Of a stretch of DNA of 64,000 nt, positions 14,451 to 41,633 are shown in pieces. The notes beneath the pieces are model-generated. The model made no database searches. It saw only the letters and a program-made list of their open reading frames with translations, and had not been told where the DNA came from. The position numbers were made by a program, and so were the translations under genes. Source of the stretch: Pseudomonas sp. EpS/L25 (GTDB lineage: Bacteria; Pseudomonadota; Gammaproteobacteria; Pseudomonadales; Pseudomonadaceae); contig NZ_LNUP01000013.1 in the NCBI RefSeq assembly GCF_001512295.1, forward strand, positions 2,735 to 66,734, given 5' to 3'. Positions within the stretch are counted from its first letter, which is position 1. Every line of letters begins with the position of its first letter.

Positions 14451-14519
14451 CTATCGCGGCCATGGGCCGCTCCTACAAAAGCATCACCCCCTGTAGGAGC
14501 GGCGCATGGCCGCGATCAA
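14451..14519. repeat. REP pair (BIME-like), copy 1
   Basis: Two inverted copies of a unit containing TGTAGGAGCGGC and GGCCGCGAT face each other across 14 bases. The same pair architecture recurs at 28439-28524 and 41566-41633. It matches the GTAGGAGCGG-type REP sequences common in Pseudomonas, which are spread by single-copy RAYT (TnpA-REP) transposases; none is in this window. Confidence 0.75.
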
Positions 14520-21520: not shown

Positions 21521-22807
21521 ATGTCCCGCTCCGCGCAACTCTTCGACCAAGCCCAGCGCCACATCCCCGGTGGCGTCAACTCACCGGTTCGTGCCTTCAA
21601 GAGCGTCGGCGGCACGCCGCTGTTCTTCAAGCACGCCCAGGGCGCCTACATCGTCGACGAGGATGACAGGCGCTACGTCGACTACGTCGGCTCCTGGGGG
21701 CCGATGATCCTCGGCCACAGCCACCCCGACGTGCTCGACGCCGTGCGTCGCCAGCTGGAGCACGGCCTTTCCTACGGCGCCCCCACCGCCCTGGAAACCA
21801 CCATGGCCGACCTCATCTGCGAGATCGTGCCGTCCATGGAAATGGTGCGCATGGTCAGCTCCGGCACCGAGGCCACCATGAGCGCCATCCGCCTGGCGCG
21901 TGGCTACACCGGGCGCGACACCATCATCAAGTTCGAGGGCTGCTACCACGGCCACTCCGACAGCCTGCTGGTCAAGGCCGGCTCCGGCGCCCTGACCCTG
22001 GGCGTGCCCAGCTCCCCGGGCGTCCCGGCGGCCTTCGCCCAGCACACCCTGACCCTGGCCTACAACGACCTGGCCGAGGTGGAAGAGACCCTGGCCAAGG
22101 TCGGCGACCGGATCGCCTGCATCATCGTCGAGCCGGTGGCCGGCAACATGAATTGCGTACCGCCTGCGCCGGGCTTCCTGGAAGGCTTGCGCCGCCTCTG
22201 CGACCAGTACGGCGCCGTATTGATCTTCGACGAGGTCATGACCGGCTTCCGCGTCGCCCTGGGCGGTGCCCAGGCGCACTACGGCATCCGCCCGGATCTC
22301 ACCACCTTCGGCAAGATCGTCGGCGGCGGCATGCCGGTGGGCTGCTTCGGTGGCAAGCGCGAGATCATGGAAAAGATCGCCCCGCTCGGCCCGGTCTACC
22401 AGGCCGGTACCCTCTCGGGCAATCCGCTGGCCATGGCCGCCGGCCTGACCACCCTGCAGCTGATCCGCCGCCCGGGCTTCCACGCCGAGCTGACCGACTA
22501 CACCACGCGAATGCTGCAGGGCCTGCAGGATCGCGCCGATGCCGCCGGCGTGCCCTTCGTCACCACCCAGGCGGGCGGCATGTTCGGTCTCTACTTCAGC
22601 GGCGCCGAAGACATCGTCACCTTCAGCGACGTCATGGCCAGCGACAGCGACAGGTTCAAGCGCTTTTTCCACCTGATGCTGGATGGCGGCGTGTACCTGG
22701 CACCCAGTGCCTTCGAGGCCGGCTTCACCTCCATTGCCCATGGCGACGAAGAGCTGCGCATCACCCTGGATGCGGCCGAGCGTGCCTTCGCCACCTTCAA
22801 GGACTAG
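21521..22807 (+). CDS. hemL: glutamate-1-semialdehyde 2,1-aminomutase
   Basis: A 428-residue PLP enzyme that makes 5-aminolevulinate in the C5 haem pathway. It has the [14 protein letters not shown] segment, the gating loop region [25 protein letters not shown] with the PLP-binding aspartate, and Lys265 in [10 protein letters not shown] as the Schiff-base lysine. The ATG follows an AAGGAG nine bases upstream. Its stop codon TAG (22805-22807) abuts the left end of an inverted-repeat element, so the native 3' flank seems to have been replaced or displaced. Confidence 0.95.
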
Positions 22808-22981
22808 TGTGGTGTTTCAGACGTTCGCGCAAGAATTGGCGAGTGATTTTTGGGCGGTTCGGCGTTCCGACTGGGCTAGGCGCCGCGACGAGTCATAGCA
22901 GGGCCATGGCGAGGAGTGGCAACAACGCCCGGGGGAAAAAGCGCCGCCAAAATTGTGCAGGTAATTTCTGAAACACCACAC
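22807..22981. mobile_element. MITE-like inverted-repeat element, copy 1 (175 bp)
   Basis: Perfect 15-bp terminal inverted repeats, GTGTGGTGTTTCAGA and its complement, bound a 175-bp non-coding segment. Weaker complementarity continues inward for about 35 bases (AAGAATTGGCG...TTTTT against CAATTTTGGCG...TTTTT), so the whole unit could fold back. It begins at the last base of the hemL stop codon. A second copy lies at 23881-24006. No transposase is encoded, and none with matching ends is in the window. Confidence 0.7.
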
Positions 22982-23727: not shown

Positions 23728-23829
23728 TCCGGCGGACGGACAGAACCTCTTCAACGTCTCGCGAGCTAGAGACGAACCAGGCGCAACGACCAACGGGAGT
23801 AGCAGCCAACGGCTGGCCCACAGCCCGGC

Positions 23830-24072
23830 CCCGCGCTCGGGTTTACCAAAAGTAAATGAGCATTGCGACGGGGCCGCCTAGCGTGGTGTTTCGGAAGTTC
23901 GCGCAAGAATTGGCGAGTGATTTTTGGCAACGCCGCCCAGACGGTCCGCCGCTATGGCCGAACAAGCACCGCCAAAATCGTGTAGTTAACTTCTGAAACA
24001 CCACACGAGGTAGGGCTGGCGACCCAGGCCATTCAACGCCGTTTGGCCGACGCGCAGCAGACTCTGGACAGG
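23830..24072 (-). repeat. 3'-flank repeat B, copy 1 (interrupted)
   Basis: The right part (24007-24072) matches 30314-30375 closely, including GCCGTTTGGCCGACGCGCAG. The left part (23830-23880) matches 30259-30310 with a few changes and holds the near-palindrome TTTACCAAAAGTAAA. Between them is the 126-bp MITE-like element. Read on the minus strand the repeat starts three bases after the DUF1820 stop codon. Confidence 0.65.
23881..24006. mobile_element. MITE-like inverted-repeat element, copy 2 (126 bp)
   Basis: The ends are GCGTGGTGTTTCGGA on the left, with two changes from copy 1, and TCTGAAACACCACAC on the right, identical to copy 1. The first 30 bases inside the left end and the last 25 inside the right end match copy 1, while the middle differs and is about 50 bp shorter. 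It splits repeat B, and comparison with the intact B copy at 30259-30375 suggests it inserted there with about two bases (AG) on both sides. Confidence 0.68.
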
Positions 24073-24075
24073 TTC

Positions 24076-24411
24076 TCAGGGCTTGTCGGGCATCGGCATG
24101 GGAAACGGCATGACGTTGGTGCCGCCCTTGGCCTCGCTGATCTTGGGCTGGCCCAGGCGCTCCACCTCGTCGATGCGGATGATCGAATGCATCGGCACGA
24201 AGCTGCGCACCACTCCTTCGAATTGCGCCTTCAGCTTCTCTTCGCTCGGGTCCACCACCACCTGGGTACGCTCGCCGAACACCAGCTCCTCGATCTCCAG
24301 GAAGCCCCAGAGATCGCTCTGGAAGATTTGCTTGGCATAGATCTCGAAGACCTGCCCCTGGTTGACGAAGATGACCTTGTAGATGGCCGGCTTGCTGGTG
24401 GATGAGCTCAT
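24076..24411 (-). CDS. DUF1820 family protein
   Basis: A 111-residue soluble protein matching DUF1820, a small family conserved next to miaB in Pseudomonas. It begins [20 protein letters not shown], has the conserved [23 protein letters not shown] stretch over about residues 25-50, and ends in a proline/methionine-rich tail. No catalytic motif is visible and no function is established. The ATG at 24411 was preferred to one four codons earlier because family members start with the short Ser/Thr leader. It is divergent from miaB. Confidence 0.75.
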
Positions 24412-28391: not shown

Positions 28392-28639
28392 CACGGCTCC
28401 TACCCCCTCTCCCCTGGGGCGAGGGCAACACGCTATTGATCGCATCGCGGCCATGGGCCGCTCCTACAGGCACGGACACTCCTGTAGGAGCGGCCGCATC
28501 GGCGGACCGCCATGGCCGTGATCGCTTTTCTCCCCCTCCCCCAACTGCGACCTGCCTCGCTCTCTCCCTCACACGCCTTTGGCACTCCCTCGCGGCGACG
28601 AGTAAGCTTGCGCAGCCTCGATCGGACCAAGGATTTTCG
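28392..28639. repeat. non-coding gap with REP pair, between ybeX and lnt
   Basis: A CCCCTCTCCCCTGGGGCGAGGG palindrome-like piece (28404-28425) is followed by a face-to-face REP pair at 28439-28469 and 28482-28524. The right half carries an extra CGCATCGGCGGACCGC insert also seen in the third half-unit at 14538-14580. The remainder is without recognisable features. Confidence 0.7.
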
Positions 28640-30187
28640 ATGCGCTGGATCTCTCAACCTGGCTGGAAGGGCAACCTTCTGGCGCTGTTCGCCGGTGCCC
28701 TCACGCCCCTGGCGCTGGCCCCCTTCAATATCTGGCCGCTGGCGCTGCTCTCCGCCGGTCTCTTCTACCTCGGCCTCAAGGGCCTCAGCGCCTGGCGCGC
28801 CTTCCTGCGGGGCTGGTGCTACGGCTTCGGCGCCTTCCTTGCCGGTACCAGCTGGATCTACGTCAGCATCCACACCTACGGCGCCGCCTCGACGCCCCTG
28901 GCGCTGTTTCTCACCCTGGGCTTCAGCGCCGGCATCGCGCTGTTCTTCGCCCTGCCGGCCTGGCTCTGGGCCCTGTGCCTGAGACGCAACCAGGCGCCGC
29001 TGGGCGATGCGCTGACCTTCGCCGGTCTCTGGTTCGCCCTGGAACTGTTCCGCAGTTGGGCACTGACCGGCTTCCCCTGGCTGTTCCTCGGCTACAGCCA
29101 GCTGACCGGTCCACTGCAGGGCCTGGCGCCCCTGGGCGGCGTCTGGCTGATCTCCGCGGTGCTGGCCTTCACCGCAGCGCTGCTGGTCAACGCTCCACGA
29201 CTGATCCTGCGCCCATTGGCCTTGATCGCGGCCCTGGTACTGGTCGCCCTGCCCTGGGTGGCCGGCGATGTCTTCAAGGGTCAGGTCTGGACGCACCCGG
29301 CCGGTACCCCGCTCAAGGTCGCCGGGGTCCAGGGCAACATCGCCCAGGAACTCAAGTGGAATCCCGACCACGCCCGCGCCACCCTGGCACTCTATCGCGA
29401 CCACACCGCCGAGCAGACCGATGCCGACCTGGTGGTCTGGCCGGAAAACGCCATCCCCGTGCTACGTGAATACGTCGGCGACTTCCTCGCCGCCGAAGGT
29501 GCCCAGGTGGCCGCCCATGGTGGGGCCCTGGTGACCGGCCTGCCCGACCGCGAACGCGATGCCAACGGTGAGTCGCGCTACTTCAACAGCATCACCGCGG
29601 TCGGCAACGGCTCGGGCACCTACTACAAGCAGAAGCTGGTGCCCTTCGGCGAGTACGTGCCGCTGCAGGAGTACCTGCGCGGCCTGATCGGCTTCTTCGA
29701 CCTGCCCATGTCCGACTTCGTCCGCGGCCCCGAGCACCAGCAGCCGCTACTGGTGAAGGGCTACCGCGTGGCGCCGTACATCTGCTACGAGGTGGTCTAT
29801 CCGGAATTCGTCGCCGACCTGGCGGCCCAGAGTCAGCTGCTGCTCACCATCAGCAACGACACCTGGTTCGGCAAGTCCATCGGTCCCAAGCAGCACCTGC
29901 AGATGGCGCAGATGCGTGCCCTGGAAAGCGGTCGCTGGCTGGTAAGGGTCACCAACGACGGCATCACCGCCCTGGTCGACCCCTTCGGTCGGATCAGCCG
30001 GCAGATCCCGGCCTACCAGGTCGGCGTACTGCAGGGCACCGTGGTACCCATGGACGGCCTGACCCCCTACCTGCACTACCGCCTCTGGCCGCTGGCGATC
30101 TTCTCCGCCCTGGTACTGCTCTGGGGTCTGCTGCTGCGTCGGCAGGATCGTCCCGAAGACGCGCCGCTGGTGGTCACTCAGAGCTAG
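28640..30187 (+). CDS. lnt: apolipoprotein N-acyltransferase
   Basis: A 515-residue inner-membrane enzyme that adds the third acyl chain to outer-membrane lipoproteins. Eight hydrophobic segments are seen, most in residues 10-215 and the last at about 485-505. The periplasmic nitrilase-like domain has the catalytic triad: Glu in VVWPENAIP, Lys in YYKQKLVPFGEYVP and Cys in APYICYEVVYPE. The start at 28640 gives the usual short basic leader before the first helix. In many gammaproteobacteria lnt follows corC directly; here the REP pair has slipped in between. Confidence 0.94.
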   Translation: MRWISQPGWKGNLLALFAGALTPLALAPFNIWPLALLSAGLFYLGLKGLSAWRAFLRGWCYGFGAFLAGTSWIYVSIHTYGAASTPLALFLTLGFSAGIALFFALPAWLWALCLRRNQAPLGDALTFAGLWFALELFRSWALTGFPWLFLGYSQLTGPLQGLAPLGGVWLISAVLAFTAALLVNAPRLILRPLALIAALVLVALPWVAGDVFKGQVWTHPAGTPLKVAGVQGNIAQELKWNPDHARATLALYRDHTAEQTDADLVVWPENAIPVLREYVGDFLAAEGAQVAAHGGALVTGLPDRERDANGESRYFNSITAVGNGSGTYYKQKLVPFGEYVPLQEYLRGLIGFFDLPMSDFVRGPEHQQPLLVKGYRVAPYICYEVVYPEFVADLAAQSQLLLTISNDTWFGKSIGPKQHLQMAQMRALESGRWLVRVTNDGITALVDPFGRISRQIPAYQVGVLQGTVVPMDGLTPYLHYRLWPLAIFSALVLLWGLLLRRQDRPEDAPLVVTQS

Positions 30188-30258
30188 CAAAGCCTGGCGA
30201 GCGAGGGTCAGACCAGGCCTGGGCGGCCCCGCGAGAATGGCTGAGGAAGCGGATCGGA

Positions 30259-30375
30259 CCCGCGCTCGAATTTACCAAAGGTAAACGGGCATCGCGACAG
30301 GGCCGCCCAGGCGGGGCTGGCCTTCCAGGCCATTTTCAACGCCGTTTGGCCGACGCGCAGCAGACTTTGAACAGG
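30259..30375 (-). repeat. 3'-flank repeat B, copy 2 (uninterrupted)
   Basis: A 117-bp unit containing the perfect palindrome TTTACCAAAGGTAAA, the GGGCCGCCCAGGCGGGGCTGG hairpin region and GCCGTTTGGCCGACGCGCAG. It matches the split copy at 23830-24072. On the minus strand it begins three bases after the stop of the DUF218 gene, the same spacing as at the DUF1820 gene. Confidence 0.7.
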
Positions 30376-30378
30376 CGC

Positions 30379-31140
30379 TCAACGATAGGCGAGCGGATAG
30401 AGCAACAGTCCGGCGGCCTCGTTGAGCAACTGGGCGGTCTGTTCGATCGCCCCCGCCTCTGGCAACCAGCCGCCGAAGGGGCGGGCATTGGGCACGCCGA
30501 TGAAGCCAATGGGCGCGGCGATCACCTCGAAGCCCTGACGCTCGAAGCACCAGCGGGCCCGCGCCATGTGGTAGGCCTGGGTCACCAGCACCACCCGCTT
30601 CACCCCGGCGTCGCGCAGCAGCGGCGCGCTGAGGGTGGCATTCTCCCAGGTGGTGCGGCTGGCACCTTCCTGCCAGCGCACCGGCACGCCCAGGTCACGC
30701 TCCATCACCTCGGTCATCAGCGTCGCCTCGCTCAGCGGTCGGCCATAGGGCGAACCGCCGGTGATCAAGACCGGCAGTTGCGTCGCCTTGGCCAGGCGGG
30801 CGGCATAGCGCAAGCGCTCCACGGCCATCCTGCTCGCGGCGTCGCCCTCCCAACCCGGATCGTCCACCGCCCGTCCAGCACCGAGCACGACGATGGCGTC
30901 CGCCCGCTGCGCCAGGCCCGGCCAGCTCGCCTGGGGCAAGGCGGCATCGCGCTCGAGCAGGCGCCCGCCGAACTCCACCGCCACCGGCAGGGTGCTGATC
31001 CAGAGTCCCAGCAGACCAAGACCGAAACAGGCCAGTCCCAGGCGCGGATGCCGACGGCGCAGCCACCAGCCACAGAGCAGGAGCAAGAGCAAGCCGCCCG
31101 GGGGCAGCAGCAGTTGCTTGAAGAAGTAGCGCAGGCCCAT
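30379..31140 (-). CDS. YdcF/ElyC family protein (DUF218)
   Basis: A 253-residue protein with two N-terminal membrane helices (about 10-55) and a periplasmic or cytosolic DUF218 domain (about 80-230). The family marks are DAIVVLGAGR, ITGGSPYGRPLSEA, the ASRTTWENA motif, and VLVTQAYHMARA. E. coli ElyC of this family is involved in envelope integrity and lipid carrier metabolism. The ATG at 31140 follows GGAGGG at good distance. Repeat B starts right after its stop codon. It lies convergent to lnt. Confidence 0.82.
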   Translation of the reverse strand: MGLRYFFKQLLLPPGGLLLLLLCGWWLRRRHPRLGLACFGLGLLGLWISTLPVAVEFGGRLLERDAALPQASWPGLAQRADAIVVLGAGRAVDDPGWEGDAASRMAVERLRYAARLAKATQLPVLITGGSPYGRPLSEATLMTEVMERDLGVPVRWQEGASRTTWENATLSAPLLRDAGVKRVVLVTQAYHMARARWCFERQGFEVIAAPIGFIGVPNARPFGGWLPEAGAIEQTAQLLNEAAGLLLYPLAYR

Positions 31141-41565: not shown

Positions 41566-41633
41566 CTATCGCGGCCATGGGCCGCTCCTGCAGGGTATCC
41601 GGCTGCTGTAGGAGCGGCCCATGGCCGCGATAG
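41566..41633. repeat. REP pair (BIME-like), copy 3
   Basis: CTATCGCGGCCATGGGCCGC and its inverted partner TGTAGGAGCGGCCCATGGCC face each other across 13 bases. Same unit as at 14451-14519 and 28439-28524. Confidence 0.75.

Follow-up and report, generated by a model that had tools for sequence, protein, structure and literature searches.

Repeat B of Pseudomonas sp. EpS/L25, very probably a gene-sparing MITE of the IS5 type

Repeat B in the window

The window, by which we mean the whole 64,000-nucleotide stretch that was analysed, contains two copies of a repeat, here called repeat B (Table 1). The gene upstream of copy 1 encodes a DUF1820 protein (PF08850) and the gene upstream of copy 2 is ydcF, which encodes a DUF218 protein (PF02698). 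The initial annotation had located both copies correctly on the minus strand behind the stop codons of these unrelated genes, but with a spacer of three bases between the stop and a conserved start at CCTGT. This offset is only apparent, because the first three bases of the element vary (GAA and GCG in the window copies, GAG in many others). The true start lies directly behind the stop, and the stop is itself the duplicated target. The palindrome described for both copies is indeed there, as TTTAC-N5-GTAAA in each, and represents the tip of a long hairpin. Genes were called with our own codon-usage script, not taken from curated annotation, and 90% of the window is coding by these calls.

Table 1. 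Coordinates of repeat B and associated features in the window.
Feature	Position	Strand	Remark
Repeat B copy 1 (MITE)	23743..24075	-	333 bp including an inserted second MITE; both ends placed
TGA stop of the DUF1820 gene, left copy of the target duplication	24076..24078	-	
Position of the right duplication copy, repeat B copy 1	23740..23742	-	Decayed, reads TGT
Second MITE (tips GTGTGGTGTTTC) within repeat B copy 1	23881..24007	.	Approximate limits
Hairpin tip of copy 1, TTTACCAAAAGTAAA	23842..23856	.	
Repeat B copy 2 (MITE)	30181..30378	-	198 bp; degenerate right end; limits from empty sites
TGA stop of ydcF (DUF218), left copy of the target duplication	30379..30381	-	
Right copy of the target duplication, TGA, repeat B copy 2	30178..30180	-	
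Hairpin tip of copy 2, TTTACCAAAGGTAAA	30271..30285	.	
TAG stop of lnt, now within the right end of repeat B copy 2	30185..30187	+	Read from DNA

Other repeats were observed in the window. The second MITE-like family has two copies, one inside repeat B copy 1 and one at 22807-22981, which starts at the TAG stop (within CTAG) of the gene at 21521-22807. Its tips occur 23 times in the 0.53 Mb of L031-L130, and in L212 a transposase-like frame (345-1442), putatively of the IS630 family, lies between ends of similar sequence. REP-like palindromes (CTGTAGGAGCGGCC...ATGGCCGCGAT) are present as inverted pairs at 14451-14516, 28444-28495 and 41566-41633.

Element ends, target duplications and empty sites

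A 24-base core of repeat B matched the 5.44 Mb genome that contains the window (the home genome, G000) at 163 places with up to 3 mismatches, 84 in forward and 79 in reverse orientation, while the same core read backwards gave no matches. For the analysis of the ends, we extracted 100 stretches of this genome, taken from the best 100 of the 163 places plus one further match list. These contained 119 cores at up to 4 mismatches, and both ends could be placed in 107. The other 12 were dropped with an unrecognised end; they include window copy 2, which was instead assessed through its empty site. All 47 pattern matches in another genome of the genus (G006) were extracted, giving 48 cores, of which 43 had both ends and 5 were dropped for an unrecognised end. 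A genome of another genus in the same family (G021) yielded 28 cores, 25 with both ends and 3 dropped for the same reason; here the right ends were located by similarity to the left end of each copy, using no consensus.

The left end of repeat B reads C-TNA-GARCCTGTTCAAARTCTGCTGCG and the right end CGCGAGATTTTGAACAGGYTC-TNA-G. The element thus carries terminal repeats near GAGCCTGTTCAAARTCT of roughly 17 bp and is bordered by a 3-bp TNA target duplication inside C-TNA-G. The two 3-bp flanks were identical in 50 of the 107 home copies, 47 times as TNA (mean 16.0 and maximum 27 in shuffles), and in 23 of the 43 copies in G006 (mean 8.8, maximum 17). For G021, the plain count was 19 of 25. Within copies, 1584 of 1819 letters match between the first 17 bases of the inverted terminal repeats versus 1387 in shuffles; for columns 11-15 the values are 437 of 535 versus 302 (sd 11).

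Most home copies (103 of 107) are 87-243 bp long and the remaining four are 333-389 bp, and they are therefore too short to encode a transposase. The longer forms vary by modules at three places. A query with copy 2 matched 16 of 37 genomes, including 10 of 13 from the genus (home included) and 6 of 11 others from the family; the 13 genomes belonging to other families in the order gave no match.

The site behind ydcF is empty in P. oryzihabitans YY7 (L134) and P. rhizoryzae (L133), where it reads CTATCGC-TGA-GT, compared to CGT-TGA-element-TGA-GT in the window. L132 also lacks repeat B at this position, and L131, L135 and L136 have a short stretch resembling its right end just after the ydcF stop, which is perhaps the scar of a deleted element. 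The reading frame of lnt runs to a stop within ydcF in the empty relatives, and in the window to the TAG within the element. The named loci nearest to the window YdcF are 87-90% identical and belong to the Pseudomonas oryzihabitans/rhizoryzae group, in which the YdcF identity would place the host.

Among the 13 genomes of the genus, the DUF1820 stop is followed by the element in five (home, G003, G004, G007 and G009) and by none in eight. The empty site in G006 and G010 is AGC-TGA-GC, which is an intact CTNAG target, CTGAG. That the same stops occur in relatives lacking the element speaks against the earlier suggestion of a module that moved together with gene 3' ends. This single insertion site (L271-L273, L275 and L276) was found to have differing interior modules in the five genomes: G003 and G009 have a short form, the forms of G004 and G007 are longer, and the home genome has a long form with the second MITE. 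The differences suggest that interiors may have been exchanged between repeat B copies, the alternative being repeated insertion at one stop, and the site may permit a study of recombination among MITE copies. In a comparison of flanks, 5 of the 43 G006 copies paired with a home copy, 3 of these on both flanks.

Repeat B is thus short and devoid of a transposase gene, has terminal inverted repeats, duplicates its target and leaves relatives with empty sites, and shares its ends with autonomous elements of sister genomes (L239 and L233; none was found at home), as is characteristic of MITEs. With REP/BIME elements, which a REP-associated transposase would move, repeat B has in common that it is extragenic, palindromic, high in copy number and often located at gene 3' ends. 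The REP/BIME unit is, however, described in PMC3733652 as a palindrome of 20-40 bp, a length far from that of the 103 copies above, and the terminal repeats, TNA duplications and IS5-type relatives of repeat B also speak against such an origin, which we regard as exceedingly improbable. The unit length, the target duplications and the empty sites all disfavour REP/BIME identity.

Stop codons, orientation and the hairpin

An end of the element lies within 1 base of a stop codon in 52 of the 107 home copies (left end 40, right end 14, both 2), in 22 of the 43 copies in G006 (left 20, right 2) and in 7 of the 25 copies in G021, in which some gene distances above 1 kb suggest missed genes. Of the 40 home copies with their left end at a stop, 39 have kept TNA at the left end and 24 at the right end. 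The coincidence with stops arises because TAA and TGA are themselves TNA and CTTAG contains TAG, so that the duplication restores the stop.

We estimated how often stops are offered as targets from unoccupied CTNAG sites outside gene interiors, of which 42 of 145 in G000 and 23 of 68 in G006 are stops. These frequencies are approximate since they were measured near occupied sites only; an earlier count that used the whole window gave 61 of 184. For the two genomes pooled, 74 of 150 copies adjoin a stop versus 65 of 213 unoccupied sites (odds ratio 2.2, p=0.0004); taken singly, the excess is significant in G000 (p=0.0016) but not in G006 (p=0.08), and G021 has no excess. Much of the stop effect is so accounted for by target availability and the loss of insertions within genes, with about a twofold extra. 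Alternatively, the availability of CTNAG sites outside gene interiors could alone set how often stops are hit, the rest being due to sampling or gene-calling errors. The share of stops among the available sites, the G021 count and the G006 value taken alone agree with this, but the excess in G000 and in the pooled data and the orientation bias described below make it rather unlikely.

The initial annotation had named random distances and orientations across the genome as the outcome that would count against it. Copies are nonrandom at stops in G000 and G006, and near target availability in G021. Among the three explanations it offered, a target preference at stop codons comes nearest, in that TNA often is a stop, although the actual target is CTNAG.

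Orientation at stops is one-sided in G000 and G006: 58 copies have only their left end towards the gene, and 14 have only their right end there (p=1.6e-7). The ratio is 17:21 when the gene ends 2-40 bp from the element (Fisher p=0.0002 against 58:14). No such bias was seen at stops in G021 (left 4, right 3), where copies are few. The bias could stem from insertion itself, if the transposition complex responds to some asymmetry in its target, such as a purine as N on the element strand, so that TAA and TGA are entered left-first. The left TNA of non-stop copies does lean to a purine (33:22, p=0.18), but a preference of 60% does not yield 58:14 (p=0.0003), and the few copies in G021 are unbiased. 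Orientation-biased insertion is accordingly possible but somewhat improbable, and a purine preference as the full cause is rejected as too weak. For the two genomes of the P. oryzihabitans group that show it, the left-end bias at stops remains unexplained.

The 140-bp form of repeat B is predicted to fold into one long hairpin. Among the 150 copies of G000 and G006, 42 are 140 bp long and 40 of these have the TTCG motif; one of the 40, of another module class, was excluded. In the alignment of the remaining 39 copies, 94.7% of the cells pair and 20 of the 56 pairs have changed on both sides, versus 9.7 (sd 1.5) in shuffles, a signal that vanishes when the partners are slid. Further pair types give a less distinct excess (41 versus 37.9, reached in 37 of 500 shuffles). 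A few pairs in alignment A1, columns 47-50 with 92-95, vary strongly and stay complementary, also from C-G to G-C, and their neighbours are nearly constant. A long hairpin with covarying arms might reflect movement as a unit, correction of the arms by each other, or both.

The predicted folding energies are alike on the two strands (-72.1 sense, -77.5 antisense). At mostly Watson-Crick pairs, 13 sense G-U variants were counted versus 33 A-C. Over all pairs the counts are 220 versus 33; the excess comes from six mostly G-U pairs, and it was the sense strand on which this structure was folded. The strand energies and the 13 versus 33 variants thus lend no support to a clear constraint on one strand at the RNA level. 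A search of the whole window with Rfam at the gathering score gave no matches and hence no support for a described structured RNA family there, and no terminator-like sites were found inside either window copy. As to position, the initial proposal of a 3'-UTR element is borne out by about half the copies of two species; in favour of an RNA function, neither an Rfam match nor a clear strand preference of the hairpin was obtained.

These data also bear on the idea that a left end at a stop supplies a useful mRNA 3' hairpin, for stability or termination, and that such copies are kept for that. The left-end excess at stops, which disappears at gene ends a short distance away, the excess of copies at stops and the six mostly G-U pairs, with the reservation just given, would fit selection of this kind. 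Near-stop copies, however, have the same hairpin with no bias, the energies and the A-C excess give the sense strand no advantage, neither window copy has a terminator-like site, and the ends are balanced in G021. We consider selection for a 3' hairpin unlikely. We give a similarly low probability to a wider view for the P. oryzihabitans group, namely that repeat B acts as an oriented 3'-end part whose left-end-at-stop copies are preferentially inserted or kept, so that dozens of unrelated genes would have the duplicated target for a stop and the hairpin for an mRNA tail. The one-sided placement at stops lends itself to a direct test.

Candidate parents, proposed mechanism and known systems

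Candidate parents were sought by a PF13340 search over the 13 genomes of the genus. Two insertion sequences had ends matching those of repeat B: L239 in G001, of 833 bp (TGA-GAGCCTGTTCACGATCTTTT...CGAAAGATCGTGAACAGGCTC-TGA), and L233 in G006, of 846 bp (TTA-GAGCATGTTCAAAATCTTTT...AAAAGATTTTGAACAGGCTC-TTA). Two types of repeat B ends, CACGATCT and CAAAATCT, have their counterparts in them; both insertion sequences share the ends and the TNA duplication with repeat B and differ from it by their transposase frames and length. L239 scored 78.5 bits for PF13340 (cut-off 34.3) and 62.7 for PF01609 (cut-off 23), and the first frame of L233 exceeded the PF13340 cut-off with 67.2 bits. With the curated full-length model NF033580, the candidates reached 95.6, 69.3 and 82.6 bits versus a cut-off of 110, frames being scored singly. 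Members of the IS1031 subgroup of the IS5 family typically produce TNA duplications.

A query with an L239 fragment found close relatives (71-100%) in G001, G005 (two copies with internal stops) and G006, and a 21-residue piece in G012; at home it recovered distant relatives only (30-34% identity). None of the 10 home PF13340 loci inspected, out of 22, had repeat B ends, and the DUF4096 insertion sequences of this genome were rejected as parents on the loci inspected. Five home loci checked for inverted repeats of their own had ends such as TAGGCTCTGTACGAAAAAT or GGGTTTGTCTGAAAAG. Repeat B may thus have no transposase partner at home. PF13340 insertion sequences with identical scores lie at or near the ends of G000 contigs C1, C4, C5, C8, C10 and C11, and are a likely cause of the breaks in that assembly.

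We conclude with high confidence that repeat B is an IS5-type MITE, presumably moved in trans and inserting at C-TNA-G with duplication of TNA, and that insertions at stops spare the protein. The ends, the duplications and the empty sites are observed; a transposase supplied in trans would recognise the terminal repeats of about 17 bp and insert the element at its target. The protein would be unchanged by insertion at a stop codon; at CTTAG, the first base of the element, G, would restore the TAG. Insertions within genes would presumably be lost by selection, and this loss together with the harmlessness of stop insertions would explain why about half of the surviving copies lie directly behind a gene in two species. 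Some observations run against this model: the home genome yielded only distant relatives and, among the loci inspected, no insertion sequence with such ends; stop use above CTNAG availability and the orientation bias, neither of which was seen in G021, are unpredicted by its plain form; and the right duplication of window copy 1 has decayed, movement being deduced from sequence comparison.

Repeat B thus belongs to a known kind of element, and the way it spares genes is instructive. A target that overlaps the stop and a duplication that restores it would offer a transposon a simple way to live in a compact genome, since insertion at a gene end is then harmless to the protein. It also cautions against reading every repeat that begins immediately behind a stop codon as a 3'-UTR regulator.

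In the literature covered, comprising titles and the openings of abstracts with few subscription journals, we found no description of repeat B or of a MITE with a stop-restoring duplication, and the term stop codon is absent from the main text of the review PMC10969869. By their descriptions, the nearest Pseudomonas elements are MITEPsy1 and the R0/R2 repeats. MITEPsy1 of Pseudomonas syringae is likewise a small MITE, listed as 'IS5?', with 18-nt terminal repeats, and is reported to transpose; it differs in its 4-nt duplication (CTAG or YTAA), its length of 100 nt, its copy number (6 in strain 1448A) and its ends (PMC3189936). The R0 and R2 repeats of P. fluorescens SBW25 are also hairpin repeats with hundreds of copies and ends matching a resident insertion sequence, and their flanking gene pairs are biased toward tail-repeat-tail. 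Unlike repeat B, they measure 89 and 110 bp with inverted repeats of 24 and 43 bp, and the passages on them mention neither a TNA duplication nor a stop-codon target, the words stop codon occurring once in the paper (PMC2718517). Beyond bacteria, the PHIS superfamily of transposons has been compared with bacterial IS5. Its NuwaII group, though eukaryotic and likened here by description rather than by sequence, is described as having the same C-TNA-G target as repeat B and a probable 3-bp duplication (PMC4482050).
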